Of a DNA stretch of 64,000 nt, positions 27,134 through 47,591 are shown piece after piece (the stretch's first letter is position 1; each line of letters starts with the position of its first letter). The stretch is from Candidatus Thiodiazotropha sp. (ex Codakia rugifera) (GTDB taxonomy: Bacteria; Pseudomonadota; Gammaproteobacteria; Chromatiales; Chromatiaceae). Under the pieces are notes generated by a model. It saw only the letters and a list, made by a program, of their open reading frames with translations. It ran no database searches and was not told where the DNA came from. The stretch is from the NCBI GenBank assembly GCA_025656675.1, contig JAHXHN010000007.1, positions 69,040 through 133,039 of the forward strand, read 5' to 3'. Made by a program: the position numbers and the translations under genes.

Positions 27134-27162
27134 AACAGTTAACACTAAATATATCCGTATGT

Positions 27163-28803: not shown

Positions 28804-29570
28804 TATTTCTCTACATCCACAATACTGTGATACTCCTTTACTATATCTTCTGCACTGGCCAATCCATTAATCCTTATCCAAGATGCCTCAGCATCACCTC
28901 GAATCAAAGTAATGGGTTCATGGTTCAATTTTGAACCTCGGAATATATCAAATGCCTTTTCGACCGTCACGACATCATTGTAGCTGCCGGTAAAAAACTG
29001 CCAATTGTCCCGAGCTTTAAAACGCTTGGCGTATTCCATCAACTGCTGTGGTGTGTCATATTCCGGGTCAATAGTGATTGATATCATAGAGACGGACTCG
29101 TCTTTCCCCAAAATCTCCTGAACTTGATGAAAGCTCGCAGATAGTACTGGACAGATAGTCGTACAAGTAGTGAATATAAAATTAAGCATCACCGGCTTGT
29201 CACTATTTAGAAGTTGCGGGAGATGTGTCTTTTCACCTTTATGAGAAGTTAAAAAAACATCAGGAATCGAATAATCGACTTTATCGATTTTATAGTCATC
29301 TTGTTCCATCATCATCCTGTGATGGGCATGCTGATCATGATTCGAATGGTCGCTCATATTCGTAGAGACCATGAATCTATTCGCAGTGGTCATACCATTA
29401 GAGGGTCTGGTGATACAGTCCATCTTAAAAGGTGGTTGAAATACCTCTGTTTGTACGCCAGGTACATCGCTCCGTACGCCTTCGGAAGAGTATGCAGCTA
29501 GCGAAAAAAACATTACCGGCAAAATTAATAAGCCATCACGCATTTTCCTTGAATCAATAAACAACATCAT
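28803..29570 (-). CDS. SCO1/SenC family copper chaperone
   Basis: A 255-residue thioredoxin-fold protein. The copper site is complete: Cys136 and Cys140 in CTTICP, and His217 in KLNHEPIT. The N-terminal part has a signal or anchor sequence (about residues 11-28). It also has an extra His/Met-rich stretch (MSDHSNHDQHAHHRMMM, about 72-88) that could bind further copper. Sco proteins deliver copper to oxidases in the periplasm. Its place among the cupredoxin genes suggests it metallates them rather than cytochrome oxidase; this is inference. A GGAGGGG ribosome-binding site precedes the ATG. Confidence 0.92.
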   Translation of the reverse strand: MMLFIDSRKMRDGLLILPVMFFSLAAYSSEGVRSDVPGVQTEVFQPPFKMDCITRPSNGMTTANRFMVSTNMSDHSNHDQHAHHRMMMEQDDYKIDKVDYSIPDVFLTSHKGEKTHLPQLLNSDKPVMLNFIFTTCTTICPVLSASFHQVQEILGKDESVSMISITIDPEYDTPQQLMEYAKRFKARDNWQFFTGSYNDVVTVEKAFDIFRGSKLNHEPITLIRGDAEASWIRINGLASAEDIVKEYHSIVDVEK

Positions 29571-29593: not shown

Positions 29594-32500
29594 TTACCGC
29601 TTAGATGACAAATTCAACCTGGAATTGTACAAAAACAGGTTTAAAGATAGGAGAAATACCAACAGTAGCAGATCAATGGTACCACCTCCGCCACCACCAC
29701 CACTGCTATCGCCATCACCTGAATCTGTGGTTCCATCATCATCCAGTATGGTCAGTGTTAGGGTACTATTTGCAGTATCTATAACGGCCACTCCAGTTAC
29801 ATTACCTAACCTAAAAGTAATCGATTTATTTCCATCATCTAGGGTGTTATCAATGATCTCTATACTGATATTCTTTTCCGATTCCCCATCTAAAAACTGT
29901 AAAGTTCCTGTTGTGACGTTGAAATCAGTTCCAGAAACAGCCGTCGTGGATTCCACACTAAGGTCAACTGTTACGCTACCCGACAGTACGTTTGTGCGGC
30001 TGATAGTAATGTTTGCCGCAGCTGATGATTCACTAACAGAGAGACTATTCACTGTAAAGGCAAGGATGGCAGAGCTCGACTGTGCTTCATCATCAGTGAT
30101 AGTCAGTTGCGATAAGCTCTGTGTTCCCAGTACAGCACCACCTTGAGGATTAATCAGTTGTAATGCTAACTTTTCATCGCCTTCCAGTTGCGCGTCATTG
30201 ATGATTGCAACATCGAAGGACTTGCTAATTGCCTCTCCTGCAGCAAAACTGATTCTACCGGTACTAAACATGTAGTCTGATGAGGCGATTGCAGAGCCGT
30301 CCATCGTAGTATAATCAACAGATATAGCCCCAGTGGAACCTCCCTCGCGTGATACTGAGATAGTTGCGCTATTACCATCTTCTGAGACTGATTGGATTGA
30401 GTTGGTAAATACCACAGCCCCCGCAGCAGGTGGGTCATCATCATCACTAAGACTGACAACTGCTGAAGCCATATCCCCCAGTAAAGCACCAAATACATTA
30501 CTTAAGGTCAAATTGAATGTTTCAATGCCCTCGAAATTTGTATCATCATTCAGGGTCACATCGAAACTCTTCGAGATTTCACCATCGGCAAAGATAATGG
30601 TGCCGCTGTTAACAATATAATCGTTGCCTGCAGTGGCTGTACCATCACTGGTTGTGTAATTAACCATCGCAACTCCCGTACTACCATTTTGGCGTACGAC
30701 TTCGATTGTCACGCTTCCATTAAACTCATCTGCAGCATAGGTGTTCAGACTGAATTCAATTTGACCTGAAGCCGGTGCCTGATCATCTTCAGTGATAATC
30801 AAATCAGCTGCAGAGTTAGTACCAATTACAGCACCACCAGATGGATTGCTGAGGCTGAGACTGACTCGCTCGTCACCCTCATAGGCACTATCATCCAGTA
30901 CAGCAACTTGAAATGATGCGGTAGTAACACCATTAGCAAAACTCAAGCTACCATTGGTTGCGCTATAGTCCTCACCGGCCATAGCGCTGTTGTCTGAAGT
31001 TGCATAATTGACACTTACGGCACCGCTTGAACCACCTGAACGAGTCACTGAAATTGTTGCGCTACCCCCATTCTCTGTTTGTTGAAATTCAAGCAAACTG
31101 AATTGCAGGCTGCCAGCAACAGGGACTGGATCATCATTTTGGATGGTAACGACTGCCATAGCAGGGGTAGCCAGGATAGCACCACCAGTAAGTGCTCCCA
31201 GATTAGCCATAAACAGCTCGTCATTTTCATAGTTGCTATCATTCAGAAGGGGAATTCTGCAATGTTGCAAGTTTTCACCCTCTGTAAAACTGATACTACT
31301 TTGAGTTGCTGTATAGTCACTTCCAGCCAAGGCACTCGAATCCGCAGTACTGCAAACAACACTGACAGCTCCAGTACTTCCTCCAACTCGTGTTACCGGT
31401 ATCACAACCTCAGATGAGCCCTCAGTCACGCTGTATGCAGAACCGCTGAATTGAATACTGCCGGCTGCAGGTATCGGTTCATTATCAAGGATGGTTATAT
31501 CGGCAAAATCCCTCTCCCCGAGGGAAACAGAGACTGGATTACTCAAACTCAGTACAATCGATTCAGCACCTTCTTGTGTACTGTCATCGGTAATATCTAC
31601 ACTGAAGCTTTTGCTTGTTTCACCATCAATGAAGGATAAACTGCCAGCAGCAGATGTATAGTCACTACCGGCAGTTGCAGTACCATCGCTTACGGCATAG
31701 TCAACAGAGCCACTACCGACACTTCCGTTAATTCTTTGAACCGTGACAAGAATGCTACCTATCCCCTCATCAACCCGATAACTGCTACCACTAAACTCTA
31801 CACTCCCGACAGGTTGAGCGTCATTCTCCTGAATTGTCAACGTAGCTGTGTTTAAAACCCCAACTGCACTACCACTCAAGGTTAAAGTGACGGTTTCATC
31901 ACCTTCAAATACGCCATCATCAAGAAGGTTGATGGTGAACTGTTTACTACTCTCCCCATCGGCAAAGTCCAAAGTGCCTGATACCGCAGTATAGTCTTGT
32001 CCCGCACTCGCCGTACCATCTGAGGTGGAGGCATAATCGATCGAAAGCGCTCCCGAAGTGCCACCTGATCTTTGTACTGTAATCTGTGCGCTGGAGCTGC
32101 TTTCATTGGCTGAATAAGTGGCACTGCTGAATTGTAACTTCTGACCGGGAAATGCCCCGGACTGCGCACCCAAGGTAAAATCATCAGAAAAGAAGGTATT
32201 TGCTTCGTTTCCTGTCTCATCTGATGTCTGAATCAGTAGATTACTGAATCCGGCATCGTCAATGAAACCAAGGAAGGTCCATTCGAAAACGGTCGATTGT
32301 CCACCAGTGAAATCAATGGCCTCAGAGCCGTTACTGGTGAATGCTAATTTTGTACTTGTCGCGCTACGAAACCAGCCTCCGACGCCATATAAAGTTATGC
32401 CATTGGCGGTCAATGTATATTGATCAGGAACCAGATGATTATTTCTTTCATCGACAGGAAACATCATATAGCTGCCATCATGTACATCCCCACCGCCAAT

Positions 32501-32782
32501 ACTGGTGCTAATACCGGCAGCACCACTCGAACTCGGTGCCCAAGTAATGCCCTGCGATGTGACTGTGGCTTCCGGTAAGGAACGAGTACCAACCCAGGCA
32601 TCACCTTCAAAGCTTTCTGATGTCAGATCGACTGTAATGGATGGTAACGAGGCCAGATCCTGTATATATTGAGTTTCTGCGGTCGCATCACAACAATAAA
32701 CAGTAACTGCTGATTGACTTTCAAATGGTATAGCAACGGCTAACAGAGACAATAATCTAAATATAGAAATCCTAGTACACAT
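29594..32782 (-). CDS. Calx-beta repeat surface protein with GlyGly-CTERM-like tail
   Basis: A 1062-residue protein with a signal peptide (MCTRISIFRLLSLLAVA), an N-terminal beta-rich domain (about residues 25-205) and seven tandem Calx-beta domains of about 110 residues. Each has the FEGDE/YEGDE-type calcium motif and SDGTATAGxDY. The C-terminus is a run of seven Gly, then TIDLLLLVFLLSLNLFLY and a basic end, the layout of the GlyGly-CTERM sorting signal. Such proteins are known to be exported by type II secretion and processed by rhombosortase; no rhombosortase gene is in the window. The start is the ATG behind AGGA; a TTG eight codons upstream is less likely. It probably binds calcium and supports cell-surface attachment of the oxidase system. 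Confidence 0.88.
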   Translation of the reverse strand: MCTRISIFRLLSLLAVAIPFESQSAVTVYCCDATAETQYIQDLASLPSITVDLTSESFEGDAWVGTRSLPEATVTSQGITWAPSSSGAAGISTSIGGGDVHDGSYMMFPVDERNNHLVPDQYTLTANGITLYGVGGWFRSATSTKLAFTSNGSEAIDFTGGQSTVFEWTFLGFIDDAGFSNLLIQTSDETGNEANTFFSDDFTLGAQSGAFPGQKLQFSSATYSANESSSSAQITVQRSGGTSGALSIDYASTSDGTASAGQDYTAVSGTLDFADGESSKQFTINLLDDGVFEGDETVTLTLSGSAVGVLNTATLTIQENDAQPVGSVEFSGSSYRVDEGIGSILVTVQRINGSVGSGSVDYAVSDGTATAGSDYTSAAGSLSFIDGETSKSFSVDITDDSTQEGAESIVLSLSNPVSVSLGERDFADITILDNEPIPAAGSIQFSGSAYSVTEGSSEVVIPVTRVGGSTGAVSVVCSTADSSALAGSDYTATQSSISFTEGENLQHCRIPLLNDSNYENDELFMANLGALTGGAILATPAMAVVTIQNDDPVPVAGSLQFSLLEFQQTENGGSATISVTRSGGSSGAVSVNYATSDNSAMAGEDYSATNGSLSFANGVTTASFQVAVLDDSAYEGDERVSLSLSNPSGGAVIGTNSAADLIITEDDQAPASGQIEFSLNTYAADEFNGSVTIEVVRQNGSTGVAMVNYTTSDGTATAGNDYIVNSGTIIFADGEISKSFDVTLNDDTNFEGIETFNLTLSNVFGALLGDMASAVVSLSDDDDPPAAGAVVFTNSIQSVSEDGNSATISVSREGGSTGAISVDYTTMDGSAIASSDYMFSTGRISFAAGEAISKSFDVAIINDAQLEGDEKLALQLINPQGGAVLGTQSLSQLTITDDEAQSSSAILAFTVNSLSVSESSAAANITISRTNVLSGSVTVDLSVESTTAVSGTDFNVTTGTLQFLDGESEKNISIEIIDNTLDDGNKSITFRLGNVTGVAVIDTANSTLTLTILDDDGTTDSGDGDSSGGGGGGGTIDLLLLVFLLSLNLFLYNSRLNLSSKR

Positions 32783-32809
32783 AAAAACTGTCCTGTCATT
32801 TAACAAATA

Positions 32810-33406
32810 TTAGTTAACGGTTAAGTGTTCAGCCTTGAAATCACCGATCACCATCGTGACCTTCTCTCCCGACTTCACATGGGCATCGGGATTGCCGAAA
32901 ACCATATAATAGATCTTATTTGGCCGAATACTCTTGCCACGGTTAGTTGGGCGAAACGCGCCTACCTTAGCGGCCATGGGTACAGGTAGTTTAGCATTAG
33001 ATTTCTCAACCACTAGTAGTGGTTTGATGCGGTGATCAAAGAAGCTGTTAGCCTTTTTTTCATCCAGGACGCGAAAACGGAAGTCGATCATATAACCGGC
33101 AGCGGTTAAACGCAGACTGATCAGCTCAACACCCCACTTTTCCGCAATCTCTTTTGCTGTTTGAGGGGAAACCGGAGAGGGAAGTTTGACAGGCTTAGCA
33201 ATCGGAGGTTTCCAGTCCTTGAAAATAGGTTGCTGCGATTGGGTGACAGTCGCCGGGCTTTCAGCACTTTTTGCAACGGAAGAGGTAAAAGCCATCAACA
33301 CCGTCATACAGATAACCAATACCATGATAATCAAAAGTGGATGACCTTTAGGGTGACTTTCCTGGTCATCCATACTTCGCTTAACGGAATTGTCAGGGTT
33401 TTTCAT
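32810..33406 (-). CDS. Membrane-anchored periplasmic protein, unknown function
   Basis: A 198-residue protein with a polar start (about residues 1-22), one membrane helix (about 23-44) and a Pro-rich linker (PPIAKPVKLPSP). A compact domain follows, with GVELISLRLTAAGYMIDFRFRVLD and a C-terminal beta-rich part (KIYYMVFGNPDAHVKSGEKVTMVIGDF). There are no Cys and no metal motif. I do not know the function. It sits between the third cupredoxin gene and the Calx-beta gene and is likely co-transcribed, so it may anchor or assemble the complex in the membrane. The ATG behind AGGTG is chosen over a GTG two codons upstream. Confidence 0.78.
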   Translation of the reverse strand: MKNPDNSVKRSMDDQESHPKGHPLLIIMVLVICMTVLMAFTSSVAKSAESPATVTQSQQPIFKDWKPPIAKPVKLPSPVSPQTAKEIAEKWGVELISLRLTAAGYMIDFRFRVLDEKKANSFFDHRIKPLLVVEKSNAKLPVPMAAKVGAFRPTNRGKSIRPNKIYYMVFGNPDAHVKSGEKVTMVIGDFKAEHLTVN

Positions 33407-33457
33407 GAACACCTACCCTTATAGCTCATACTGTTACTGCTTGCCTGTTATTTGACA

Positions 33458-33498: not shown

Positions 33499-36279
33499 CT
33501 AAGGCCGAATAAACACAGGATAGTTCAAGTAAATCGCATCTGGATACCCTTCCACTTCAACTCGCAGGGTGTCCCCGGGTAGAGCTAGATCAAGTCGACC
33601 GGCATTACCAACATTATTTGCGTTGATGCCCCAATTGCGATTGTTGCGAACCTGACCGTTATTGTTGTTAGTCACAGTTGGTGTAATCTCCGCAACATCA
33701 ATACCACCCCTGACCAGGTAGACATGCACCTGGGTTCCGGGAGCGATGCTTGCGTCAACACTACCCCTGATACGCCAGTCATCATTGCCCGTATTAGCAG
33801 TTCCCTGTTGGCGATACTCAGAGCGACTCAAAGAGACCAATCTCATGAAATCGGCCTGGGCCACATTGCTGACTGCCGCGGATGTATCAGTTGCTTCATA
33901 GGTCAGACTGCCAAGTATACCGCTTGCCGCATTGTCAACCGTGATCGTAGCCGCACCATCTGATCCTACAAGCTCAGGGGTGACATTATCCGGATCATTG
34001 ACCTCTGCTGCTGTTAGCGTATCAGCTGTATCCACATCAACATCGTTATCAAGCACGCCAGGTGCAGCGAAGTTAAAGACCGTCTCGATAGGTTCTCCAT
34101 CACCATTCAAGGTGGTCAACAAGGCATCCTGCAGTAATAGCGTATCATTATTGGCGATTGGCGTGTCATTCTGTGGATCAACCACAATCGTGACTGTCGT
34201 TGGATCACTGAGCAACCCACCGCCATCCACCGCTCTGTAAGTAAAGCTGTCCTCACCATTGAAGTCAACATCAGGCTCGTAATGGAATGAGCCGTCGCTG
34301 TTCAAGCTGAACAGTACACCTGGATTATTTGGATCAGGACGCGCATTACTCGGACCGGTCACCAACTGCACAGTTAAAGTATCGCCATTCGCATCCGTGT
34401 CATTCTCCAATACACCGGGAGCCGCCACATCCAGGATACCATCTTCAACCATGTTGTAAGTATCGTTAACGCCGACTGGCGCTGCTGGTATGGGATCAGT
34501 GACCGTAATTGTTACAGTAATCGCCGCACTTTCCGGGTTGATACCATCTTCAACAGTGTAGGTGAATGTCTCATCCAATGGCAGTATTGATGGGACAGCA
34601 GGTGGTGTATAGGTACAATCGCCTGTTCCATTGTCACAGGTCAATCCACCTTCAACGATGCCTGTCGTATCCAGAGTAACAATTGAGAGTGTATCTGTTT
34701 CTGGATCGGTATCGTTGGTCAGTACGTTGAAATCAGCTACCACACCTGAATCAGTCACGACATCATCAGTCACAGGTGTCGGTGCCATGTTCTCAATCAC
34801 ATCAACGGTCACCTCAACGCCTGCCACAGAGTTGACACCATCTGAAACGGTATAGGTAAATATACCTGTTCCGGTTGTATAAGGGTTAGGATCTCCCCCA
34901 GCCGGAATAAAGGTACAATCTGCTCCCAGACATGAAACGGTACCACCGATTTCGGGTGTTGTAGCATCAAATTGCGTGATAGAGAGTGGTAATAATTCAG
35001 GATCAGTGTCATTGGCCAGGACATCTACCACGCCACTCACACCGGTCATGGTGCCTTCTGCGAATTCAATCGTCAGGGTGTCAGGCAATGCAACCGGTGG
35101 TGCATCCGCAACACTTGGTCCGAAGTTCAGGAAACGCAACATGCCACCTACGGCATCACCAGCAGTGACAACTTCTGGGTCACTGGGATTGGTCATATAG
35201 CCGTTGCCGTCATACACCGCATAGCGTCCTTCCAACGCTGGTGTAACAATCACATCCTTTGTCTTCAGTGGAGGTAAACCGACTGAGTATTGTTGACGAG
35301 GCGCCATTGTTGTGGCCCCTGTCACTCCGTCCTGCCAGGTGTATTGAATACCGTCTTCCGCGTGGATCATGCCGTGCAGGCCTTGAATGACAGGCACATG
35401 ATTTTCACTGGATGCACTCAGAAAACGCAGCAGTGTCGGTACGCCGGCATTGCTTACAGCAATATCCGGAGTTATTCCATCCACATAAGGTTCACCATTG
35501 ATCAGGAACCACTGTGGATGGTAGGCAATAGGTGTATAATTTGGATCACCTGCTGCAACTGCGGCATTATGATCCGGATCGATTTCACTGTAGAACAGCG
35601 ACACCTCATTGTTATATACAACACCTGGATATAGTTCTGCAGGTGTTGTCAAAGTCGCATCAGCTGCGTTCTTTGTGACAGCACCGTACAATCCCATATA
35701 GACCTGGTTTTGAGGATGGGTACCGGAATGGTACATAAAGGTACCAGAATTATTGACTGGGTTATTGCGGATGTTAGTCCAGGCATAATGACGTCGACCA
35801 CCATTAGCTGGTGCCTCTCTGGTATACGAACGTACCTTTTTAGTCAGATTTGCCCCGCGAGCACCTACAGACCCATCGTTCCAGGTAGGGCCGTTAGAAA
35901 ATGCAGAGAAAGGCAACTCCTGCCCAGGTATGATCACCGAGGTAGGCTCGGTCAGACCATTGGATAGCAATATTCGTAATTCCGTGTCATTGCTAGGTAC
36001 AGATAATACCGGACCTGGAACATCTGGATCGGGTAGCGCATTGATACAGGTTAGACGATCACCATTAGTGGCTGCGTCATAACATATACCAGCAGGGTCT
36101 TCCACATATCCCCACATGGGCACACTCACCAAGGTGCCATCGGCCATTGGAAACTGCTTGGTATATTGTTTAGTAGCCAAATAATAGTCTTCTGCACCTG
36201 CTTGACCAGCAGCCAGAGCCAAGGCGCATGCGATTACAATTGGTTTGATCTTTACATTCATGGTTTTAAACCTTTTCAT
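33499..36279 (-). CDS. Cupredoxin-domain protein without copper sites plus cadherin-like repeats (oxidase protein C)
   Basis: A 926-residue exported protein (signal peptide about residues 1-29, ending AGQAGA). Residues 30-390 read as two cupredoxin domains of multicopper oxidase type, but the copper motifs are eroded. GTFMYHSGTHPQNQVYMGLYG stands where a HCH...H...M motif would be, and HVPVIQGLHGMIHAEDG where HPxHxHG would be. Residues 395-820 hold about four Ig-like cadherin/VCBS domains (VLANDTDPE, VLTNDTDPE, VLENDTDANGD, VLDNDVDVD), with probable calcium sites. A final beta domain follows. I infer a structural, calcium-dependent subunit rather than an enzyme. GGAGGGAAAGACA precedes the ATG. 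Confidence 0.85.
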   Translation of the reverse strand: MKRFKTMNVKIKPIVIACALALAAGQAGAEDYYLATKQYTKQFPMADGTLVSVPMWGYVEDPAGICYDAATNGDRLTCINALPDPDVPGPVLSVPSNDTELRILLSNGLTEPTSVIIPGQELPFSAFSNGPTWNDGSVGARGANLTKKVRSYTREAPANGGRRHYAWTNIRNNPVNNSGTFMYHSGTHPQNQVYMGLYGAVTKNAADATLTTPAELYPGVVYNNEVSLFYSEIDPDHNAAVAAGDPNYTPIAYHPQWFLINGEPYVDGITPDIAVSNAGVPTLLRFLSASSENHVPVIQGLHGMIHAEDGIQYTWQDGVTGATTMAPRQQYSVGLPPLKTKDVIVTPALEGRYAVYDGNGYMTNPSDPEVVTAGDAVGGMLRFLNFGPSVADAPPVALPDTLTIEFAEGTMTGVSGVVDVLANDTDPELLPLSITQFDATTPEIGGTVSCLGADCTFIPAGGDPNPYTTGTGIFTYTVSDGVNSVAGVEVTVDVIENMAPTPVTDDVVTDSGVVADFNVLTNDTDPETDTLSIVTLDTTGIVEGGLTCDNGTGDCTYTPPAVPSILPLDETFTYTVEDGINPESAAITVTITVTDPIPAAPVGVNDTYNMVEDGILDVAAPGVLENDTDANGDTLTVQLVTGPSNARPDPNNPGVLFSLNSDGSFHYEPDVDFNGEDSFTYRAVDGGGLLSDPTTVTIVVDPQNDTPIANNDTLLLQDALLTTLNGDGEPIETVFNFAAPGVLDNDVDVDTADTLTAAEVNDPDNVTPELVGSDGAATITVDNAASGILGSLTYEATDTSAAVSNVAQADFMRLVSLSRSEYRQQGTANTGNDDWRIRGSVDASIAPGTQVHVYLVRGGIDVAEITPTVTNNNNGQVRNNRNWGINANNVGNAGRLDLALPGDTLRVEVEGYPDAIYLNYPVFIRP

Positions 36280-36296: not shown

Positions 36297-37688
36297 TTAT
36301 TCATCAATGCCAATGTAGGGCGGAAGGACGACAACTGCACCCAGTGATCCACCAGGGAAGATATCGAAGGTGGTAAGCTCTTTCTCAGCATGTGAGTGCC
36401 ACACCAGGAAGTACCCGCCGAAGGGGTTCAGACCACCCTCACCTGGAGGCAAGTCGCCTGTATCACCCAGGAAGGGGCTACCACTCCACCAACCACCGAG
36501 ACTCAGTTCACCGACACCAGGCAGGCTGACCAGATCGGAAAGCGCCTTGCCGTGATCAGCACAATACTCATGTTCGTATGTCGATCCAGCAGATGTATCA
36601 CCGAATCCATCCCCATTACCATCGACACAGACATGGCTGGTATCGTGGCCATAGATATCCCAGTTGAGATCCTTGCCAGTCCAGGTCCAAAGGGCATCGA
36701 CTGTCTGCTTGGGTGCTGAGTTGATGGTGTTATCCGAACGTCCCAGGTCGGCCATCACACCATCAGAGCTGAGCATCTTGCCGTCCCGTCCAATGAAGCG
36801 CAGGTTTTCACCATGGTAGTGCATGGGGTGAGAGTCATGGCCGGCATTCACGTTGCGTACCAGAACGGTGTCACCGGGATGGGCCATTACCAGGGACTCA
36901 TAGGGCTGGTTTGGGAACAGGTTGTTGTAGTCTCCCTGAAAGAGATCGGGAAAGACCCTGCCGTTCAAAAACCAGACTTTGGCATACCGATCCGAATTGG
37001 TGAAATGCTCGTAGTGGCCCTTTTCCATCTGAATATGGATATCAGGGTCCACTTCTGTCATCAGATAGAGATTTTCCTGATCATAATCCGTGCCTGTCCC
37101 GGCACCATAGGCAGTACGACTGCCATCGGCTGGCCGAACAACCATGACACCCTGCAGGCCCATCTCTGCATGCAACCCTGGATTCGCACCATCCAGGCTG
37201 TGATAGATATAGGTGCCCGGGCTACCTGCTGTGAAGCTATAGGTCACTGTTTGAGTGCCCGAAGGATCCGAAGTATTGGTTAAAAGACCTGGTGAACCAC
37301 CGGTCGCAGTAACCTGGTGACCCGTAACGATAATGGAGACCGGGTTCGGTACACCATAGTTGGTCATGTTGATCGTGATCGCCTCACCTTCAGTGACGAT
37401 CAGGGTCGGTGCCGGATACTGTGGTAGTGCATATCCCTGCCCTTGTGGATGCGATGCACCTGTTCCTGCATTCATATCACCGAAACCCCACATACGAAGA
37501 CTGGTACCTTCCGGCAGGTTCATATTGAAAGGAAAGGCGTACAGATTGAAATCGCCCCCAGGTTGCGGTGTTATCCCACGGATGTCGTGGGCAGCTTGAG
37601 ACTGCGCCCAAGGGAGCAAGCTCGCCACACCCAACATCAGGACGCCCATCAGCCGTCCAGGTTGTTTGAGTAGTTTTCTCATCATCAT
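36297..37688 (-). CDS. Multicopper oxidase half-site protein B
   Basis: A 463-residue exported protein (signal peptide about residues 1-33) with two cupredoxin domains. Domain 1 (about 40-190) has lost its copper residues (IYHSLDGANPGLHAEMGL). Domain 2 (about 205-455) keeps HPMHYHG (His287, His290, His292) and WHSHAEKELTTFDIFPGG (His431, His433). These supply one half of a trinuclear copper cluster; the type 1 copper Cys is absent, with Ser432 in its place. Protein A, encoded just upstream, supplies the other half. It therefore looks inactive alone and competent in a heteromer. TAGGAG precedes three consecutive ATGs. Many Gly/Asp residues suggest a secreted fold. Confidence 0.87.
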   Translation of the reverse strand: MMMRKLLKQPGRLMGVLMLGVASLLPWAQSQAAHDIRGITPQPGGDFNLYAFPFNMNLPEGTSLRMWGFGDMNAGTGASHPQGQGYALPQYPAPTLIVTEGEAITINMTNYGVPNPVSIIVTGHQVTATGGSPGLLTNTSDPSGTQTVTYSFTAGSPGTYIYHSLDGANPGLHAEMGLQGVMVVRPADGSRTAYGAGTGTDYDQENLYLMTEVDPDIHIQMEKGHYEHFTNSDRYAKVWFLNGRVFPDLFQGDYNNLFPNQPYESLVMAHPGDTVLVRNVNAGHDSHPMHYHGENLRFIGRDGKMLSSDGVMADLGRSDNTINSAPKQTVDALWTWTGKDLNWDIYGHDTSHVCVDGNGDGFGDTSAGSTYEHEYCADHGKALSDLVSLPGVGELSLGGWWSGSPFLGDTGDLPPGEGGLNPFGGYFLVWHSHAEKELTTFDIFPGGSLGAVVVLPPYIGIDE

Positions 37689-37710
37689 TATCTCCTAGCT
37701 CGGCTTGGTC

Positions 37711-38985
37711 TTAGTTCACAACGATCTCAGTGATCATTCCGCCATCGAACTGCGTTCTGTTGCTCATTTGGTGCAATTCAGTGGCATGCAGGAAGTAAGT
37801 CCCTGCTGCAACATCCGTGGTATCAATGATCACATCGTGCGTTTCACCACCGCCGAAATTTACAGAAGAGGTAGTGCGGTAGAGATTCTTTCCATCAGTA
37901 CCACGCATGTGGCGGGCGCCGGTACCGACAATCTGCATCTTCAGACCCGGTGCAGTGAGTGTCCAGAAACGATCCAGACCCACATTGGAGAGCCTAAGCA
38001 AGAGCCGCTCGCCCTGAGAAATGCTGATCACCGAATCGAGTGTCTGGGTTGGGGTTCCGTTATTCAGTAGTTCACCCGGATTGCCTGTCACTTTTCCGTT
38101 TACGTCATCCAGAGGTGGTGGGAGGCTTCCCGATATGATTGTATCGGGATATCCACGACCATTGATCTGCGGATAGTCTCCTTCCAACAAGGCGAATGGC
38201 AGTGGCTGTACAAACAGGCTGGCATCATGGAAGTCTGAGTCGAAACTGGCTAACTGCAGAGCCTTCTCCTGATCAAAACCTGTTGTGCCATCGTCGTCAT
38301 TGTAGGCATAACCCATAGGCGCATTAGTAGCTGTGCCACCCTTTCGTGTGGCAATCGGACAACCCGGTACGGCACTCGCACAACCCGTCGCATCTTGTGC
38401 AGGGTGTACGTAGAGATTGGCCAACATACCCATCTCCATATGCTCTGTGGCTTCCACATGACAATGGTAGATGTAGGTGCCTGGCTCAACTACGTTGTAG
38501 TAGTAACTCAGGGTTGCGCCCATGTTGATACTGACTGAAACCTCAGGCACGCCATCAAAAACAGTGGCGGCATTGGGGAAACCATGCCAGTGAATCGTGT
38601 GAGGATCGAACAGATCGGGACGAATAACGGTACCTACATTTGACAGGTTAAGCCAAAGCTCGTCTCCCTCATCCAGTTCGATGGTCGGACCGGACCATTC
38701 CGCATCCAGAATACCATTTGAGATAACATCTGCTTCAGGTGTCCCTGTCTGATCGCCAAAACCAAAGATGTACATGGGATTGTCATCTGACATGATGGCA
38801 AAACTGTCACCTGCAATCAGTGACATACATTTATGGTTGGCAGGGGCATTCGCATCATCGATTATTGCATCACCATCATTATCTCCAGGACACTGAATAT
38901 TCACAACAGCGCCGGCACTTCCTATCATCCCGAGCAATGTGATTGCTATTGCTCCGCTGAGGGCTTTTTTTGTAAAAAATTTCAT
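37711..38985 (-). CDS. Multicopper oxidase half-site protein A (type 1 copper subunit)
   Basis: A 424-residue exported protein (signal peptide about residues 1-26) with two cupredoxin domains. Domain 1 has HTIHWHG (His129, His132, His134) and YIYHCHVEATEHMEMGM (His174, Cys175, His176, His182, Met187). This gives a complete type 1 site (His129, Cys175, His182, Met187) and four trinuclear-cluster histidines. Domain 2 (about 260-424) retains no HxH pair; FLHATELHQM stands in the equivalent place. So the protein lacks half of the cluster. Protein B, 22 bp downstream, carries exactly the missing histidines. Likely location: periplasm, cell surface or outside the cell. The substrate is unknown; metal oxidation is one possibility. 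Confidence 0.9.
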   Translation of the reverse strand: MKFFTKKALSGAIAITLLGMIGSAGAVVNIQCPGDNDGDAIIDDANAPANHKCMSLIAGDSFAIMSDDNPMYIFGFGDQTGTPEADVISNGILDAEWSGPTIELDEGDELWLNLSNVGTVIRPDLFDPHTIHWHGFPNAATVFDGVPEVSVSINMGATLSYYYNVVEPGTYIYHCHVEATEHMEMGMLANLYVHPAQDATGCASAVPGCPIATRKGGTATNAPMGYAYNDDDGTTGFDQEKALQLASFDSDFHDASLFVQPLPFALLEGDYPQINGRGYPDTIISGSLPPPLDDVNGKVTGNPGELLNNGTPTQTLDSVISISQGERLLLRLSNVGLDRFWTLTAPGLKMQIVGTGARHMRGTDGKNLYRTTSSVNFGGGETHDVIIDTTDVAAGTYFLHATELHQMSNRTQFDGGMITEIVVN

Positions 38986-39116: not shown

Positions 39117-42100
39117 TTACATCGCCTCGTCGGCACCGATGTCATTCAGACCACCGTTAGGACGTGCATCGTTGTCGATATCAACACCAAGGCGACTTGC
39201 GGCGTTAACATTAGCTGCATTGTTAATGGCCGCAGAGGCTGCAGTCAGGTGGTAGTCATATAGAGGACCTTCAGCGTTTCCTACCACATCATCCAGCTCG
39301 ACCAAGGACAAAGGTCCAAAAGCCACCTGGATAAAATTGCCACCCTCGTCAAAAGCACCCGCTGTAGCCAATGTCTTGAACTCGGGGAAGAGGAAGCCGT
39401 CACGACTTTCGTTGAAGTACTCGTTCACAAACCCAGCATCACCTGTAATAAAGGTGTTACTGCCCGGAAACTGCACCAGTTCGCCGGTTTGTAGGAGTGA
39501 GAAACGTGCATCCAGCACATCAGCCGTCTCAACTTTTCCGTTCATGACTGCCAGATCATTGGTATAGCCTTCGATGTTCACCAGTTCAGCATTACAGGTT
39601 GCTGGATCGAACGTCGTCAGATCGGCAGGTACACTCGCCAGACAGATATCAGTAGCAGGGAAAAGCCCCGTTTCACTGATCGGTGTAGCTGGGCTATCAA
39701 AGTTCAACCAGAAGAATGACCGGTTGTGGTAGACGATATTGTTCCGCAGGAACAGATCAGAGAACAAGGCACCATCAGGATCACGCAATGTGGCTGGATC
39801 GATAAAGACATCGCCTGCAGCATCATCGATATTCACCAACTGGGACATCGCTGGTCCATGCAGCCTGGAGATAATACCCGCTGGCTGTGGAATAGAGAGG
39901 TTAGGATTGGTGATTTCAAACGCCTGAGAACCCGTTGCGGTACTTTCGTTGTTGGCAACTGTGTTGTTACGGATGATCGCCTGCAATGAGTCAGATACGG
40001 AGATGGCACCTGCTATACCGGCAACATTGTTGTCGATCATATTGTTGTAGACAAACACATCGTACCAGGGGCCACGAGCACCCAGACTGCGATCAACATC
40101 AAGACCATTGGCCGTATCGATGCGGATAGCACTACCGTCACCAGCACCGGCGGCATTGCCACGGATGATGTTGGCATCAACAGTGACATGACCTGTACCT
40201 GAAGAGAGCATAAGCCCGGTCTCGTCGGCAGCCATCAATGGAGGCTGTCCACCGATGAAGATACCGCCACCGGAAGGTGCTGTACCCACCTGCTGGTTAA
40301 AGACCTCATTGAAGATGATGTGGTTGTCTTCTATCACACCACCGTTGGAACGGCCGAAGTGTGAAATTCCACCACCGTTGCCTTTGCCGAAGTTACCGCA
40401 GACCCAGTTCTGTTGGACCTGATAATTATCAGCACCGACATTCAAAGAGATACCACCACCCGTGCCATTGGAATTACCATTCTGAGTGATATGGTTGTGG
40501 TGGATACGAATCCGGTCATTTCTTGCATCGTCATAGACCAAATCGCCCACTTCATTCTCATCAACACCGCCAAGGTTATAATCGCTCTCAGCCGCGATTT
40601 CATGGCTGATGTTGGGATGTCCGATACGGATACCCCCACCAAAGATACCAGCGTTGGAAGTCACTATATTGTTACTGATATTCATGAACTGGTTAAAACC
40701 GTTGGCCACGATGCCACCACCCTGGCTGGCACCCACAATGGTAAAGCCATCGATACGGGCACCCCGGTTAGCGAGAGCACCGAAACGGTTTGCACCCGTA
40801 CGCTTACCAGTGACAAAAATACCGGCACCCTGCTCAGTTGGAAACAGTGCTTCCGCCAGCGCAGGAAAGCCAAAAGGCGCCAATGTCTGGCCCATCAGAC
40901 GATCGATGGAACCATCATCGTCCAGTTTCCTTGCCAGAGCACGCCACTGAACAATCTTTTCAGTCGGAGACTGACGAGCATTGAGGGTCACAGCACCGGC
41001 ACCCCACCCTTGCAGTTTCACCGGCTTCCACATGATGACCATTTCATCGTAGACGCCAGGCTCAACCAGAATCAGGTCACCTGCTGCAACTCCGGGCTGA
41101 CCTAACTTGGTAGGATCACCGATCGCTTCCTGGATGGTGGCGAAGTCACCTGGCACACTCCAGACGTTATAGGTTCCACCATTCGGACGCACACCCACTT
41201 CAGCGGTACCAAGCATAGTACCCACAGTTAGAGTCACACCGAGGGGCGAATCAACGGGGGCAGGAACGCCACCCACACGTGTCACCACCACCTGGTAGTC
41301 TCCCGGCGCAACAGCCGGCACTTCCGCGAATATCCGGTTGCCATTGCCATTGACTACAGTCATCGGCGTTTCCGTACCGTCTGCCGCCACCAGTTTGGCT
41401 TGAGGATTGGCTCCAAAATTGTAATTACGCGATACAAACTTGTTGGCCAGATCCACACCATCCCACTCAGGATTCGGTACCAGTACGTTATTACCCATTG
41501 CCTGGATACGGACCTGCTGTCCTGGCAGAGCGAAAGGCCCGATATTTGTGCCACGACGTTTCACATATCTGATCATCGGGATCAGGGTCGGACGTTCACA
41601 ATCCACCGGAAAATTACCTGGGCCAGCAAAGGCCGCTATCGGCTCAACCGGAGTATCCAGATAGGTTGTGGCACCCGGCATATACTGGAAGGTGTAGCAG
41701 AACTGGCTGAACTGCTTATTGAAGTACGGATCAAGCATGGTTGATGCATTGCCGTTATCATCAATGTTGTCACCATCCGCATCCAGTGCCGGATCATAAG
41801 CCGGGTTAGGAATAGGACCGGCATCGTTCATGCAGGAGACCAGCATATTTGGCGACTGACCCGAAGGTTGAGGCAGATTGGCCGTAAAGGTTGAAGGCAC
41901 GACTGCATTGTAACGACCATAGGTATCTGCATAGATACGGCTCACCTGATTGCCTTCCGCGTCATAGAAAGCGACAGGTGCATTCGGTGGTGCAAACTTC
42001 TCACCAAAGGCTGGAGAGTTCGGGTTGAACTCATTGGCCAAGTCATTGAGGATTACGCCTGAGGCATTGCCCACCAAGGGCACATCTGTCATCAGAAAGA

Positions 42101-45083
42101 ACTCAACACCCGCATTTTGTGCACCAGAGAGGGGAACCTCTTTGAGGTCGCAGAGTCGACGATCAACACCGGCAAAAGGTGCTGCCACATCAGCAGGATC
42201 CAAGCCAGGGAGAATCTGTGCAGGATCACCACTGCCATCCTTGGTCGCCATCGCCAGCAGAGCAGGAACTGTGCGCATATTACCGACGCAGGCTGCAGGC
42301 AGTGCCTGAGTGGAGGGGATATACTCATCGCCAAAATCGACGTTCTTGTGCTCTTCCTTCACCAGCTTGTAACCACCTGGTGTTGCTGCTTCGACTATAT
42401 AGTCGGAGGGCAACATCCACTCTTCAGGTAAAGAAAGAGGATTATCTACACCACGCCGGCTTGCATAGAAGGCATTCAGACTGGCTTGAATAGGTGCAGG
42501 TAGTGTTGCTGTATCGTAGTTATTGAAGGCAAAACCACCGTCAAATACACCAGGACGTACCTGATTGAAGTTACGCAGACCATCAAAGCAGCGGCTGTTT
42601 TCTTCATCGGTAATGGTGCCATCCAGATCGAAGTCGATCAGGTTTTGACCCTGACAACCGGTAGGCAGATTGTCATCCCAACTGTCGGTCCATGTAATAG
42701 CAAGGGCATCACCACGGTCGAAGATACCATTACCATTACGGTCGACATCTTCATTACCTGGCGCACCGCCATCTGCCCAGCCGAGGGGATAGTTATCCAC
42801 ATCAGCTAAGTCAATAGTGTTATTACCATTGATATCATCAATGAAACCATCGTCTGGTTCAGGCGCACCACCGTTCTGATTCCAGTCGATGTCACAGTCA
42901 TCGACACCAAAGTTTCCTTGAGGAAAACAGTCAATGTCACCATCGGCATACAGGTTAATCTGTACACGGGGAATACCTGGCTCCCAAGTCTCTGCAGCCG
43001 TAAACTGAGGCTCATCCTCGGCACGTACGGTGGCATAGTAGACGATACCTGAGATACCGCCATTCTCACCAACGAACTGAGGCAAGGTAGGTGGAATGGT
43101 GGTGAAATCAGGTGCAGTGAAATTTACATAATCGGTCTTACCGAATTGCATGACACTGGTCTGTCCCAGGAAGCCCTGGAAAGCTGCGGTCAGCACCTGG
43201 CCTGTTTCGGTACGTGAAAGGTTATTAGTGGTATTTGGGTTGATGAGAGGATTACCCGCATCTGCTGTTAAATCGCAATTAGCGGCTATACCATCACCTG
43301 CAACCGCTGGGTCACCCATATCAGCTGGGGTACAGACCTGTGGCTGAGGTGTCAACTCGCCAAACGAGGGCATATCCCAACCATTATCTGGAAGGACTTC
43401 ACCACCGGCATCCACAACAAATGTGGCGCCTGTTGCCTTCTTGTTGGCAAAGCTGACTTCAGCCACCAGCCAATGAAAGAAGGGGAAAACCTGATCAAAA
43501 GGTGCTTCACCAGCACCATCCATAGCGAAATTCTGATAGACGGTGCCATCACGCCAGCGGACACTGACATCCTGACTCTCTGGACCAATGCCGTTCTCAT
43601 CGTCTGAATTACCTGCTATGCCATCAGCACCATCCGGCTCCCAAAAACCGTCCTGGTCAACATCATTGAAGACAGCGGTATTCAGACGGGCAAACCAATT
43701 GAATACGGGAACATCGCCAAAGTTACAGCTCATACCCCCATTACAGGTACCACCGGTTTCATCAACAGTAAAAGGTTGGGCAGCTATAACCACATCCAAA
43801 GGTCTATCCCAGATAACCAGCTGATAACTGCCGGGAGGCACATTCGGGATAGAGAAATTACTGTCACCATCACAAGGCGCGGCAAAAAGCCCTCTTCCTA
43901 AACCGCCTGGTGTGGATTCGTTCAGACCGATCCAGCATTGTGGAAACGGACGACCACTAAAGAACTGAAAGTTCGGTGAACGGGACATATGCATGTCCGT
44001 AATGGTTCCGCTGACACTTGCCACTTGTTGACCTGGACCGGCAGACAAGGGAGGAAATCCGCCATCAGCTGTGGATTTAACGAAACCTACAAAGACGTGG
44101 GGCCCTGGAAGACCGAATTCGACAAACAAGGGGGGCTCATTCGCTTTAACCCACGCATCGATAACCTTACTACCTTCAATGGTGCTCGTCTGTACCCAAC
44201 CTGGATCAGCCGAAGGTGATGGAGGAATAATGATCACACCATATTTGCCCGGTGCAATGTTCTTGACCGTCAAGAAGCCATTCTCATCAGGCTGCAGCGT
44301 ACCGTCACCAAGATTGCTTACGATCGGATCACCATTCGCATCAAAACAACCGTAAAAAGTATTCGGATCTGCATCGGGTTGCCCGTCAGCGTCACAGCCA
44401 TGCTGATACTCGGTACCCAATGGATTACCGAATACATCCTGTATGACTTGGCCACCATTCTGGCCATAGCGGCCTGCCGGCTCCTCAAGAAACAGTTCGA
44501 ACTGAGTCCAGTCCACATGTCCGGGCTGGCCTACACCAGGGTCAGTCTCTTCCGGTAAATCTGGTGTGCCGTTGATCGGTGCATTGTCATGAAACAGATA
44601 GATCGAAATCTGGGAAGTAGGAATCGGCTGTTTCTGCACCACAACTGTGACATTATCCAGTGTTTGATCAGGATCCTCCGCATTAGGGAGTACCACCGCT
44701 TGGTTACCACTGATGCTATAACCTGCATAAGGCAGTACAGATACATAGTAGCGGCCTGGAGGAACACTAGTGATGTTGACCGAATCTTCTTCTACATTTC
44801 CACTCAAGCCACTACCATCGAATGCCAATGCGGGTGGATGGTTACTGGCATGAAAACCCATGGAGAGCAGTTCATCGGGAATGATTGATGGATTTGCAGG
44901 ATCAACTGCAAAAGTCTTATCCTCCTGCAACAGCCAGCGGAAGCCGCTCACTGCATTGCCATTCTTATCCACCACATTCAAATTAAATTGAGCTGCGTTT
45001 ACAGTTGTAGTCAGAAAAAGCAGAGTCAGTGCGATAAAAACCATCACACCTCTGTTTTTGTAACCCTGATTCTCGTTTATCAT
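39117..45083 (-). CDS. Giant secreted protein: beta-sandwich, EF-hand-like loops and right-handed beta-helix
   Basis: A 1988-residue protein with signal peptide (MINENQGYKNRGVMVFIALTL..., cleaved near VNA/AQ). The N-terminal 1250 residues hold several carboxypeptidase-regulatory/SdrD B-like sandwiches. They also hold Asp/Asn-rich loops resembling EF-hand or dockerin calcium sites (VDQDGFWEPDG, DINGNNTIDLAD, VDRNGNGIFDRGD, DFDLDGTITDEE). From about residue 1300 (VPGDFATIQEAI...LVEPGVYDEMVI) a parallel beta-helix runs to the C-terminus, which ends NDIGADEAM. No catalytic signature is clear. It leads the multicopper operon. The start is the ATG behind TCTGGAG; an ATG 17 codons upstream would spoil the signal peptide. 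Probably an extracellular scaffold; possibly a polysaccharide-binding protein. Confidence 0.85.
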   Translation of the reverse strand: MINENQGYKNRGVMVFIALTLLFLTTTVNAAQFNLNVVDKNGNAVSGFRWLLQEDKTFAVDPANPSIIPDELLSMGFHASNHPPALAFDGSGLSGNVEEDSVNITSVPPGRYYVSVLPYAGYSISGNQAVVLPNAEDPDQTLDNVTVVVQKQPIPTSQISIYLFHDNAPINGTPDLPEETDPGVGQPGHVDWTQFELFLEEPAGRYGQNGGQVIQDVFGNPLGTEYQHGCDADGQPDADPNTFYGCFDANGDPIVSNLGDGTLQPDENGFLTVKNIAPGKYGVIIIPPSPSADPGWVQTSTIEGSKVIDAWVKANEPPLFVEFGLPGPHVFVGFVKSTADGGFPPLSAGPGQQVASVSGTITDMHMSRSPNFQFFSGRPFPQCWIGLNESTPGGLGRGLFAAPCDGDSNFSIPNVPPGSYQLVIWDRPLDVVIAAQPFTVDETGGTCNGGMSCNFGDVPVFNWFARLNTAVFNDVDQDGFWEPDGADGIAGNSDDENGIGPESQDVSVRWRDGTVYQNFAMDGAGEAPFDQVFPFFHWLVAEVSFANKKATGATFVVDAGGEVLPDNGWDMPSFGELTPQPQVCTPADMGDPAVAGDGIAANCDLTADAGNPLINPNTTNNLSRTETGQVLTAAFQGFLGQTSVMQFGKTDYVNFTAPDFTTIPPTLPQFVGENGGISGIVYYATVRAEDEPQFTAAETWEPGIPRVQINLYADGDIDCFPQGNFGVDDCDIDWNQNGGAPEPDDGFIDDINGNNTIDLADVDNYPLGWADGGAPGNEDVDRNGNGIFDRGDALAITWTDSWDDNLPTGCQGQNLIDFDLDGTITDEENSRCFDGLRNFNQVRPGVFDGGFAFNNYDTATLPAPIQASLNAFYASRRGVDNPLSLPEEWMLPSDYIVEAATPGGYKLVKEEHKNVDFGDEYIPSTQALPAACVGNMRTVPALLAMATKDGSGDPAQILPGLDPADVAAPFAGVDRRLCDLKEVPLSGAQNAGVEFFLMTDVPLVGNASGVILNDLANEFNPNSPAFGEKFAPPNAPVAFYDAEGNQVSRIYADTYGRYNAVVPSTFTANLPQPSGQSPNMLVSCMNDAGPIPNPAYDPALDADGDNIDDNGNASTMLDPYFNKQFSQFCYTFQYMPGATTYLDTPVEPIAAFAGPGNFPVDCERPTLIPMIRYVKRRGTNIGPFALPGQQVRIQAMGNNVLVPNPEWDGVDLANKFVSRNYNFGANPQAKLVAADGTETPMTVVNGNGNRIFAEVPAVAPGDYQVVVTRVGGVPAPVDSPLGVTLTVGTMLGTAEVGVRPNGGTYNVWSVPGDFATIQEAIGDPTKLGQPGVAAGDLILVEPGVYDEMVIMWKPVKLQGWGAGAVTLNARQSPTEKIVQWRALARKLDDDGSIDRLMGQTLAPFGFPALAEALFPTEQGAGIFVTGKRTGANRFGALANRGARIDGFTIVGASQGGGIVANGFNQFMNISNNIVTSNAGIFGGGIRIGHPNISHEIAAESDYNLGGVDENEVGDLVYDDARNDRIRIHHNHITQNGNSNGTGGGISLNVGADNYQVQQNWVCGNFGKGNGGGISHFGRSNGGVIEDNHIIFNEVFNQQVGTAPSGGGIFIGGQPPLMAADETGLMLSSGTGHVTVDANIIRGNAAGAGDGSAIRIDTANGLDVDRSLGARGPWYDVFVYNNMIDNNVAGIAGAISVSDSLQAIIRNNTVANNESTATGSQAFEITNPNLSIPQPAGIISRLHGPAMSQLVNIDDAAGDVFIDPATLRDPDGALFSDLFLRNNIVYHNRSFFWLNFDSPATPISETGLFPATDICLASVPADLTTFDPATCNAELVNIEGYTNDLAVMNGKVETADVLDARFSLLQTGELVQFPGSNTFITGDAGFVNEYFNESRDGFLFPEFKTLATAGAFDEGGNFIQVAFGPLSLVELDDVVGNAEGPLYDYHLTAASAAINNAANVNAASRLGVDIDNDARPNGGLNDIGADEAM

Positions 45084-45672
45084 GGTTTTTTCTCCAGACC
45101 CTAATTGGTCAACAAACTTTACTGGGACTTGCATGCCAAGCTATCCAGACACACCAGCCCCTTTACCAGTGCTTAAGCCAAAGTTTAAGTTTCTCTATAT
45201 AAAGAGTCTTTGCGTGTTACTACGCCAATCACACATCAAATCTCCTACCCGGGGATGAGTAAATTGAGTATTTAGCCGGGAGTAAAAACCCTACTGCAAA
45301 AGGTAGGGTTGCCAGATAGGATTTAGAGTCGGGTTTTAATTCGACAATCGAGTGATTTTTCTACAAAATTGACGGTGATTAAATACAGAAAACAGATACA
45401 GCAATCACTTGATGAAAACACCTCATCAGCGTGCGTGGATTGAGCCGAACATTACAAAACCCAGTAACGTGGCATACATAAGATTTTCATGGGGTTTATT
45501 CAAGATTGAATTTGTGTCATTGTGCCCTATAAGCAAATTCAAGACTGAAATTAATCATAATAATTCATGGTTTGCATAGCGCCCATTCATATCTAAACTT
45601 AGTTTGTTATAGATATACATAAAACGATCCTATCTTAGAAAAGAAACAACTAAGATCTAACATAATATTCGG
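45084..45672. promoter_or_regulatory. Divergent control region of the multicopper operon and the response regulator gene
   Basis: These 589 bases hold no gene. The key element is AACCCTAC-N8-GTAGGGTT (45287-45310), a perfect inverted repeat. Next to it, GAGTA recurs at 45257, 45266 and 45280; its minus-strand form TACTCAT fits the NarL heptamer pattern TACYYMT. CCCGG and CCGGG flank the GAGTA repeats. A NarL-type regulator is encoded at the right edge, so this is its likely target. Confidence 0.55.
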
Positions 45673-46341
45673 ATGGCAATGGACGTGGACAAGAAGAAAA
45701 TCATCATCGCCGAAGATCACAACATTTTACGTGCCGGGCTCAAGGCATTGTTGACCTCCAATCCACAGTTTGAAGTGATTGGTGAGGCTGACAATGGTCG
45801 GGAAGCTATTCGTCGTGTCATCGATCTTAAACCCGACTTGGTTATCATGGACTTGAGCATGCCTGGATTGAACGGTATGGATGCAATACGTGAAATCAAA
45901 GAACGTATGCCCGATGTCAAGACATTGGTTCTAACGGTACACAATGAGGAAGAGTATGTACTTGCCAGTCTTAAAGCTGGCGCTAACGGCTATGTGCTGA
46001 AGGATGCCACCCAAAATGAACTGATGACTGCTGCCGAACGGGTCTTGAATGGAAAGACCTACTTGAGTGCGGAAATTACTGAAAAAGTAGTCAACAGCTA
46101 CCTGAATACGAATAACATCAACCAGGAACCTGTTACCCGATGGGATACGGTTACTCAAAGAGAACGGCAAATCCTCAAGTTGATAGCTGAAGGCCACACC
46201 AATAAGAGCATGGCGGAATATCTCTGCATCAGTGTAAAAACGGTGGAGAAACACCGCGCCAATCTAATGAAGAAACTTGATCTGCATAGTGTTTCGGCGC
46301 TGACGACCTACGCGCTAGAGAAAGGTATTATTAACCGTTGA
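45673..46341 (+). CDS. NarL/FixJ-type response regulator
   Basis: A 222-residue two-domain regulator. The receiver (about residues 8-125) has the acidic pair Glu14-Asp15, phosphoacceptor Asp60 (VIMDLSMPG), Thr in VLTVHNEEE and Lys in YVLKDATQ. The LuxR-type helix-turn-helix (about 155-215) reads LTQRERQILKLIAEGHTNKSMAEYL-like, ending KTVEKHRANLMKKL. It converges with an intact soluble kinase gene with an 11-bp overlap and is divergent from the multicopper operon. I infer it controls that operon. The ribosome-binding site is weak; a second ATG lies two codons in. Confidence 0.93.
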   Translation: MAMDVDKKKIIIAEDHNILRAGLKALLTSNPQFEVIGEADNGREAIRRVIDLKPDLVIMDLSMPGLNGMDAIREIKERMPDVKTLVLTVHNEEEYVLASLKAGANGYVLKDATQNELMTAAERVLNGKTYLSAEITEKVVNSYLNTNNINQEPVTRWDTVTQRERQILKLIAEGHTNKSMAEYLCISVKTVEKHRANLMKKLDLHSVSALTTYALEKGIINR

Positions 46342-47179: not shown

Positions 47180-47591
47180 CAACAGTGCCCCTGAATTTTA
47201 TGAAACCAAAAAACTCAATGATGATTTACAAATAAATAAACTTCAGAAAACGTGTCATCCGGTCCACATTTTTTTATTTATTACTGCGGTTACAAGCATT
47301 GTTCATGCCATGCATTATATTTATCTTATTTAATATAGGCTTACAGTTCTTTTATAATGTTTATTATAATAATATGTGGTTTCTGAGTGTAAGGAATCCC
47401 GACATATATACGATTAATTCCTAAAGTAATATGGGTGATATGCCCTATTTCGAAAGAATGTGTCGGGAAAGTTTACAATTCAATAACCCTCTATCTGATG
47501 GATCTCCTTGACAATCAGAGAAGGAAATGGGAGATGCCCCATACATTATCAGTATAAATTTGGGTGGTGTGCTTCTAATTATTAATTTCAG
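47180..47591. other. AT-rich non-coding gap upstream of the soluble kinase gene
   Basis: About 410 bases without a gene. It is AT-rich at the kinase end. An 8-bp inverted repeat TCCCGACA (47397-47404) / TGTCGGGA (47461-47468) encloses ATGGGTGATATGCCCTAT. The string TGCCCTAT also occurs before the response regulator gene near 45527. These may be regulatory; no promoter is clear. Confidence 0.35.

Follow-up and report, generated by a model that had tools for sequence, protein, structure and literature searches.

Two adjacent genes carry complementary halves of the copper sites of a two-domain multicopper oxidase

Two neighboring genes in the 64,000-nucleotide stretch of DNA analyzed here (the window) encode proteins, A and B, that hold complementary halves of the copper sites of a multicopper oxidase. 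Judged by their sequences, A, B and the next gene product, C, all descend from a two-domain multicopper oxidase and have since diverged, and the comparisons presented below support well that A and B belong to a heteromeric enzyme. The best reading, and a likely one, is a heterotrimer of A, B and C, which would carry one active site at the interface between A and B.

The gene cluster and its relatives

The genes form a series on the minus strand that runs from D through A, B, C and E to a Calx-beta repeat protein, an SCO1/SenC protein, a CXXCH protein and a sensor kinase (Table 1). The open reading frames of A and B had been placed exactly in the initial annotation. Pfam Cu-oxidase families match A and B. 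Taken over Pfam and NCBIfam, A, B and C returned only general oxidase and repeat families, D gave weak general matches, and E had no match in either collection. The window derives from a genome close to Candidatus Thiodiazotropha, lucinid clam symbionts that oxidize sulfur, and the database record nearest to A is 96 % identical to it.

Table 1. Genes of the cluster, with their positions in the window
Feature	Coordinates	Strand	Description
Protein D	39117..45134	-	2005 aa, surface-type, upstream of A
Protein A	37711..38985	-	424 aa, two-domain oxidase subunit
Protein B	36297..37688	-	463 aa, two-domain oxidase subunit
Protein C	33499..36279	-	926 aa, two-domain oxidase paralogue with repeats
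Protein E	32810..33412	-	200 aa, small, conserved, no assigned family; after C
Calx-beta protein	29594..32806	-	1070 aa, seven Calx-beta stretches
SCO1/SenC family protein	28803..29570	-	255 aa
CXXCH protein	27163..28803	-	546 aa, one CXXCH motif (residue 70)
Sensor kinase	25745-27178	-	477 aa, HisKA_3, at the far end of the cluster

A sequence search with six peptides of A yielded 39 loci with A, found in Thiodiazotropha and tubeworm symbionts, Rhodoferax, Thiobacillus, Geobacter, Verrucomicrobia, Kiritimatiellae and Lentisphaerae. The sequence of B played no part in this search. Across the 39 loci, the Calx-beta repeat protein was present mainly in closer relatives. The SCO1/SenC protein is probably a copper chaperone. 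The CXXCH protein is probably a mono-haem protein, and it resembles, by description alone, the products of the mofC-like genes of the literature.

A and B retain opposite halves of the ligand set

When all His, Cys and Met residues of A were listed, every ligand that the initial annotation had assigned to this protein was recovered, and all of them lie in domain 1. The type 1 site consists of H129, C175, H182 and M187, and the four trinuclear histidines are H132, H134, H174 and H176. These eight ligands were kept in all 39 relatives. For H182 and M187 this conservation is partly due to construction, because one of the search peptides (TEHMEMGM) contains both; the two residues were also present in the A copies of the class sample that were found by profile (10/10). 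Domain 2 of A had been described as free of copper ligands and, indeed, its histidines H359, H383, H400 and H405 were kept in only 12 to 19 of the 39 sequences. A further histidine that had gone unmentioned, H253, is located between the domains and is invariant (39/39).

The corresponding listing for B revealed, among the trinuclear histidines, only the four of domain 2 that had been claimed: H290, H292, H431 and H433. H290 and H292 were found in 37/37 relatives, and H431-S432-H433 as well as E437 in all 36 aligned rows. The 37th row, from locus L021, shows an alignment gap at H431-S432-H433 because of an insertion, and the protein itself has WHSH. H287, likewise absent from the earlier description, is conserved in 37/37 sequences. 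It had also been proposed that Ser replaces the type 1 Cys of B. S432 is indeed present between the last two histidines, but it need not represent a lost type 1 Cys, given that the residue in this column of the complete two-domain enzymes is Asp (10/10).

For comparison we used 12 proteins from the same sample that carry HTIHWHG and HCH in domain 1 and H-x-HG and HDH in domain 2 on each chain; two copies or near-copies were dropped, leaving 10 rows. In one complete enzyme (L117), the domain-2 motif lacks its leading His, a residue that is not a trinuclear ligand. A was represented by 20 rows out of 45 sequences (the window, the 39 loci and L080-L084), and B and C by 20 of 43 each; the 20-row sets include 15 loci picked for spread and four of L080-L084.

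In the complete two-domain oxidases, all eight trinuclear histidines reside on one chain (10/10). A had all four domain-1 histidines in 20/20 rows, with no domain-2 histidine in 17 rows and one in the other three. All four domain-2 histidines were present in 19/20 rows of B, the exception being the L021 gap; domain-1 histidines were missing from 11 of these rows, and nine had one, always at the identical position. C never showed either set in full (0/20), and had a single domain-1 histidine in 10/20 rows and a single domain-2 histidine in 1/20. The type 1 Cys was found in A (20/20), in the alpha protein of a second family described below (15/15) and in the complete enzymes (10/10), and was absent from every row of B, C and the beta protein of that second family. 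The histidines absent from A are exactly those retained in B, at the same columns of the complete enzymes. All ten A and all ten B copies of the class sample carry their half of the motifs.

Since the ligands that A and B still have do not vary between phyla, decay into pseudogenes was rejected. Neither protein reached the NCBIfam equivalog cut-off for Cu nitrite reductase (296.3 bits, compared to 26.5 for A and 47.8 for B) or the cut-off for the CopA-type copper resistance oxidase TIGR01480 (478.95 bits, compared to 65.4 for A and 25.3 for B).

A and B occur in the same genomes

The co-occurrence of the two genes in related genomes had been named as a check in the initial annotation. We searched 274 genomes of the class for A (E <= 1e-60) and B (E <= 1e-40), and both were found in the same seven, with ten copies each and equal numbers per genome. 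These genomes represent seven genera. The chance of obtaining the identical seven under independence is about 5e-14, a rough figure that ignores the relatedness of the genomes. The copies are those of the window, of L080-L084 (L083 and L084 from genomes G101 and G239), and of L041, L043, L045 and L048 with their partners. C gave ten matches at 1e-44 or better in the same seven genomes; eleven more genomes had only weak C matches (7e-28 to 7e-21), and nine of them carry the alpha/beta family.

In the order of genome G213, A and B share the same one of 36 genomes. Among 72,556 plasmid records, the A sequence of L081 matched eight, and B of the window matched the same eight over at least 80 % of its length; partial B matches, covering 52-58 % of the query, were obtained in five more records. 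In the phylum around L030, A was detected in 3/240 genomes, and the new one (L153) shows the B motifs in a second frame.

C and D accompany the pair

B and C follow A in 37/39 loci, and in the remaining two the contig ends 2 bases past the A match. D is present in 37/39 loci, the other two having only 1.5 and 2.3 kb on the D side; in L021, D is located on the opposite strand. The oxidase-like part of C comprises approximately residues 1-400, retains both oxidase domains and is followed by bacterial Ig/cadherin-like repeats. No histidine of C is kept throughout its relatives, the best being H184 (26/37).

D and A lie in one open frame in L025, L026, L028, L029, L030 and L032, and D is fused behind C in L080, L081, L082, L151 and L152. 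The C-D fusion occurs in Cupriavidus metallidurans CH34 (L151), which carries these genes, and in Paraburkholderia largidicola, where A, B, C-D and E (BEI72461.1, BEI72460.1, BEI72459.1 and BEI72458.1) are all annotated 'hypothetical protein'. D has A as its fusion partner in one set of loci and C in another, which supports the view that A, B, C and D would form one complex. Among the open frames of the relatives examined, no natural A-B fusion was found, the fusions seen being D-A and C-D; the long B frames of L034 and L035 begin ahead of A but in a different reading frame, and do not count as fusions.

The split recurs in a second, two-gene family

The weak C matches led to a second family, in which adjacent genes encode two proteins of approximately 340 residues each, alpha and beta, without C or D (L086-L089). 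Alpha carries the domain-1 set together with the type 1 ligands, and beta the domain-2 set alone. Members of the family were located at L086-L089, L091-L105, L120-L134, L141, L142 and L154. At E <= 1e-49, alpha was detected in 15/274 genomes of the class (17 copies); all but one of them also had beta at E <= 1e-59 (14 genomes, 16 copies). In the genome without a beta match (G187), 508 bases separate the contig start from the start of alpha. Alpha/beta is commoner than A-B-C in the class (15/274 compared to 7/274 genomes). Beta adjoins alpha in 15 cases, including G159:C273, where alpha is a partial match, and in G036 the two are on separate contigs. The G036 locus (L085:4444-6638) contains two tandem alpha-like genes at the contig end, with a beta-like gene on another contig.

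The alpha motifs were found in 17/17 copies, and the beta H-x-H motifs in 16/16 (first) and 15/16 (second). All four domain-1 histidines were present in 15/15 alpha rows, with at most one domain-2 histidine (in two rows); all four domain-2 histidines were present in 15/16 beta rows, with at most one domain-1 histidine (in two rows). As judged by these motifs, the complementary split recurs in a second, two-gene family. As this family does without C, C is unnecessary for such a site in general.

The exceptional beta gene, L126 (G101), has its second H-x-H in another frame, due to a broken gene or a sequencing slip. In four of the 16 beta proteins (L127, L130, L134 and L142), a Cys stands between the last trinuclear histidines (H-C-H), possibly as a remnant of a domain-2 type 1 site. 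The alpha protein has a His at a place like that of H253 in A. At L086 and L087, no C gene was found beside the pair, nor a common function among the neighboring genes.

Ancestry and predicted fold

The profiles of A, B and C had their best PDB match in 3g5w, the two-domain blue copper oxidase of Nitrosomonas europaea (E 1e-21, 2.3e-18 and 9e-13, respectively). The predicted monomers of A (mean pLDDT 78.5, pTM 0.81) and B (mean pLDDT 80.8, pTM 0.82) had 3g5w and 2zwn, a metagenomic two-domain laccase, as best structural matches. Both known enzymes have two cupredoxin domains, and their ligand motifs are matched in kind and position by those of A and B.

In a tree of 101 rows (support values are SH-aLRT from quick searches), A, B, C, alpha, beta and the complete enzymes each formed one group (98-100). 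B and C were sisters (98), and beta was placed beside them (93). When 53 ligand-region columns were removed, A, B, C, alpha and the complete enzymes remained groups (97-100), and support was 91 for B with C and 52 for beta; neither A with alpha nor beta with B and C formed one group in this reduced tree. The support of 93 for beta with B and C may reflect shared loss, because the grouping vanishes without the ligand columns. C probably arose as a copy of B and then lost its ligands, since the two are sister clades both with and without these columns.

A possible A-B-C ring and its alternatives

According to passages of PMC6650940, two-domain laccases are homotrimers with the T2/T3 coppers located where domain 2 of one subunit meets domain 1 of the next, and in the enzyme of that study the type 1 copper belongs to domain 2. 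By analogy, the three places of the ring would be taken by different proteins, A, B and C, instead of identical subunits. A would contribute the type 1 copper, which accepts the electrons, along with the domain-1 half of the trinuclear cluster. The domain-2 half would come from B, and C would occupy the third place without copper. If the ring is kept, only the contact between domain 1 of A and domain 2 of B has eight histidines, so that the complex would have one active site and one type 1 copper. The type 1 copper of A would take up electrons from an external donor and pass them along the His-Cys-His motif to the shared cluster, where O2 would be reduced. The donor could be a metal such as Fe(II) or Mn(II), a proposal with somewhat less than an even chance. 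D and the repeats of C may hold the complex at the cell surface, and the SCO1-like protein may assist with copper. The stray domain-1 histidine at one position of B (9/20 rows) and C (10/20 rows) has no role in this model. A contact between A and B is very probable, and an A-B-C ring carrying one site, for which the homotrimers serve as the model, is fairly probable. The initial annotation had proposed a heteromeric enzyme made from two polypeptides. Co-occurrence and gene order support the heteromer, but the likely unit is A-B-C, because a third two-domain paralogue exists.

It is rather unlikely that A and B share the cluster without C, either as a heterodimer or in a ring in which one of the two occurs twice, with C as a surface protein of the same ancestry. 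Such an arrangement would agree with the alpha/beta pairs of L086 and L087, which show the same split without C, and with the combination of long surface repeats and a missing copper set in C. However, C retains both oxidase domains and adjoins B in 37/39 loci, the other two being cut, and its clade is the sister of B (SH-aLRT 98, or 91 without the ligand columns).

We consider it very unlikely that there is no shared site at all. In that case A would be a blue copper electron carrier or a part-site protein, and B would bind metal alone or carry copper. Type 1 sites do function in electron carriers, and either chain by itself has half a cluster, but the four trinuclear histidines of A, which an electron carrier does not need, are invariant (39/39). 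In addition, the histidines that A lacks are the ones that B keeps at the columns of the complete enzymes, and this is seen in two gene families. The strict one-to-one co-occurrence of A and B, their adjacency and their matched halves make it extremely unlikely that A partners another protein, e.g., a complete oxidase elsewhere in the genome, while B pairs with something else, even though two further Cu-oxidase_3 matches were found in one 648-residue frame on another contig of this genome.

Relation to known multicopper oxidases

Type C is the usual name for two-domain oxidases whose type 1 copper resides in domain 1. These enzymes hold both halves on each chain (10/10), whereas here the halves are encoded by two genes and accompanied by a copper-free third copy. 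Ceruloplasmin and MnxG are six-domain single-chain oxidases. The proposed ring, with six cupredoxin domains around a single trinuclear site, would share their plan, but its domains would be contributed by three proteins. In the heterodimeric fungal laccases of Pleurotus, the large subunit bears all coppers and the small one is not known to be related to it. Those laccases and the enzyme proposed here both have two different subunits, but in the present case two paralogues share out the ligands of a single site. In the open-licence literature, where the papers returned concerned fungal laccases or unrelated subjects, we found no report of a split or heteromeric multicopper oxidase with divided ligands, and an earlier report elsewhere is possible. 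As far as this literature shows, the division of the active site between two genes, the position assigned to C, the fusions of D and the alpha/beta family are new; the cluster itself is already known in another bacterium.

According to passages of PMC5566968 and PMC12016527, Slit_1812-1818 of Sideroxydans lithotrophicus ES-1 comprises three tandem extracellular cupredoxin proteins together with SCO1 and cytochrome genes. Passages of PMC12016527 further report that Slit_1817 and Slit_1818 have multicopper oxidase motifs and the larger Slit_1816 does not, that late magnetite cultures expressed Slit_1812-1818 more highly than cultures on Fe(II)-citrate, and that similar clusters exist in Paraburkholderia, Ralstonia, Anaeromyxobacter and Steroidobacteraceae. 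The window cluster has the same content, i.e., three tandem cupredoxin genes plus SCO1 and cytochrome genes, as far as the description in these passages goes. By order and description, Slit_1818, Slit_1817 and Slit_1816 would correspond to A, B and C, respectively, and the description in these passages makes Slit_1812-1818 look like the C-D fusion branch (L080-L082). Neither divided ligands nor a complex is mentioned in the passages of the two papers that deal with this cluster. MofA of Leptothrix and OmpB of Geobacter sulfurreducens are extracellular multicopper oxidases beside SCO1-like and mofC-like genes (passages of PMC5566968); they are single chains, whereas here separate two-domain proteins are found. 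Passages of PMC11412304 and PMC13386937 concern other multicopper oxidases.

If the A-B-C heterotrimer is real, a multicopper oxidase active site is encoded by two genes, so that motif searches would misjudge each half and expression of a single gene would yield a dead protein. The complex would also be a living intermediate between homotrimeric two-domain oxidases and single-chain six-domain enzymes such as ceruloplasmin, and would offer a concrete enzyme model for the magnetite-expressed cluster, which has so far been without a mechanism. More tentatively, and with doubts outweighing confidence, we suggest that hetero-oligomeric two-domain oxidases might form a widespread class that has so far been overlooked, with the A-B-C(-D) surface complex and the alpha/beta pair as two of its branches. 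A-B-C would then be the unfused counterpart of ceruloplasmin, a ring of three chains keeping one of three clusters and oxidizing solid Fe(II) minerals in iron oxidizers.

Other genes and domains beside D and A

Upstream of D, a response regulator and a histidine kinase, both assigned by eye, are encoded at window positions 45673-47182. At L028:1-5523, L032:2531-11137 and L033:8681-11119, a PAP2 domain is located ahead of A in the same open frame. In two of these three loci the PAP2 stretch is weakly vanadium-chloroperoxidase-like, and a similar stretch was seen by eye in L031.
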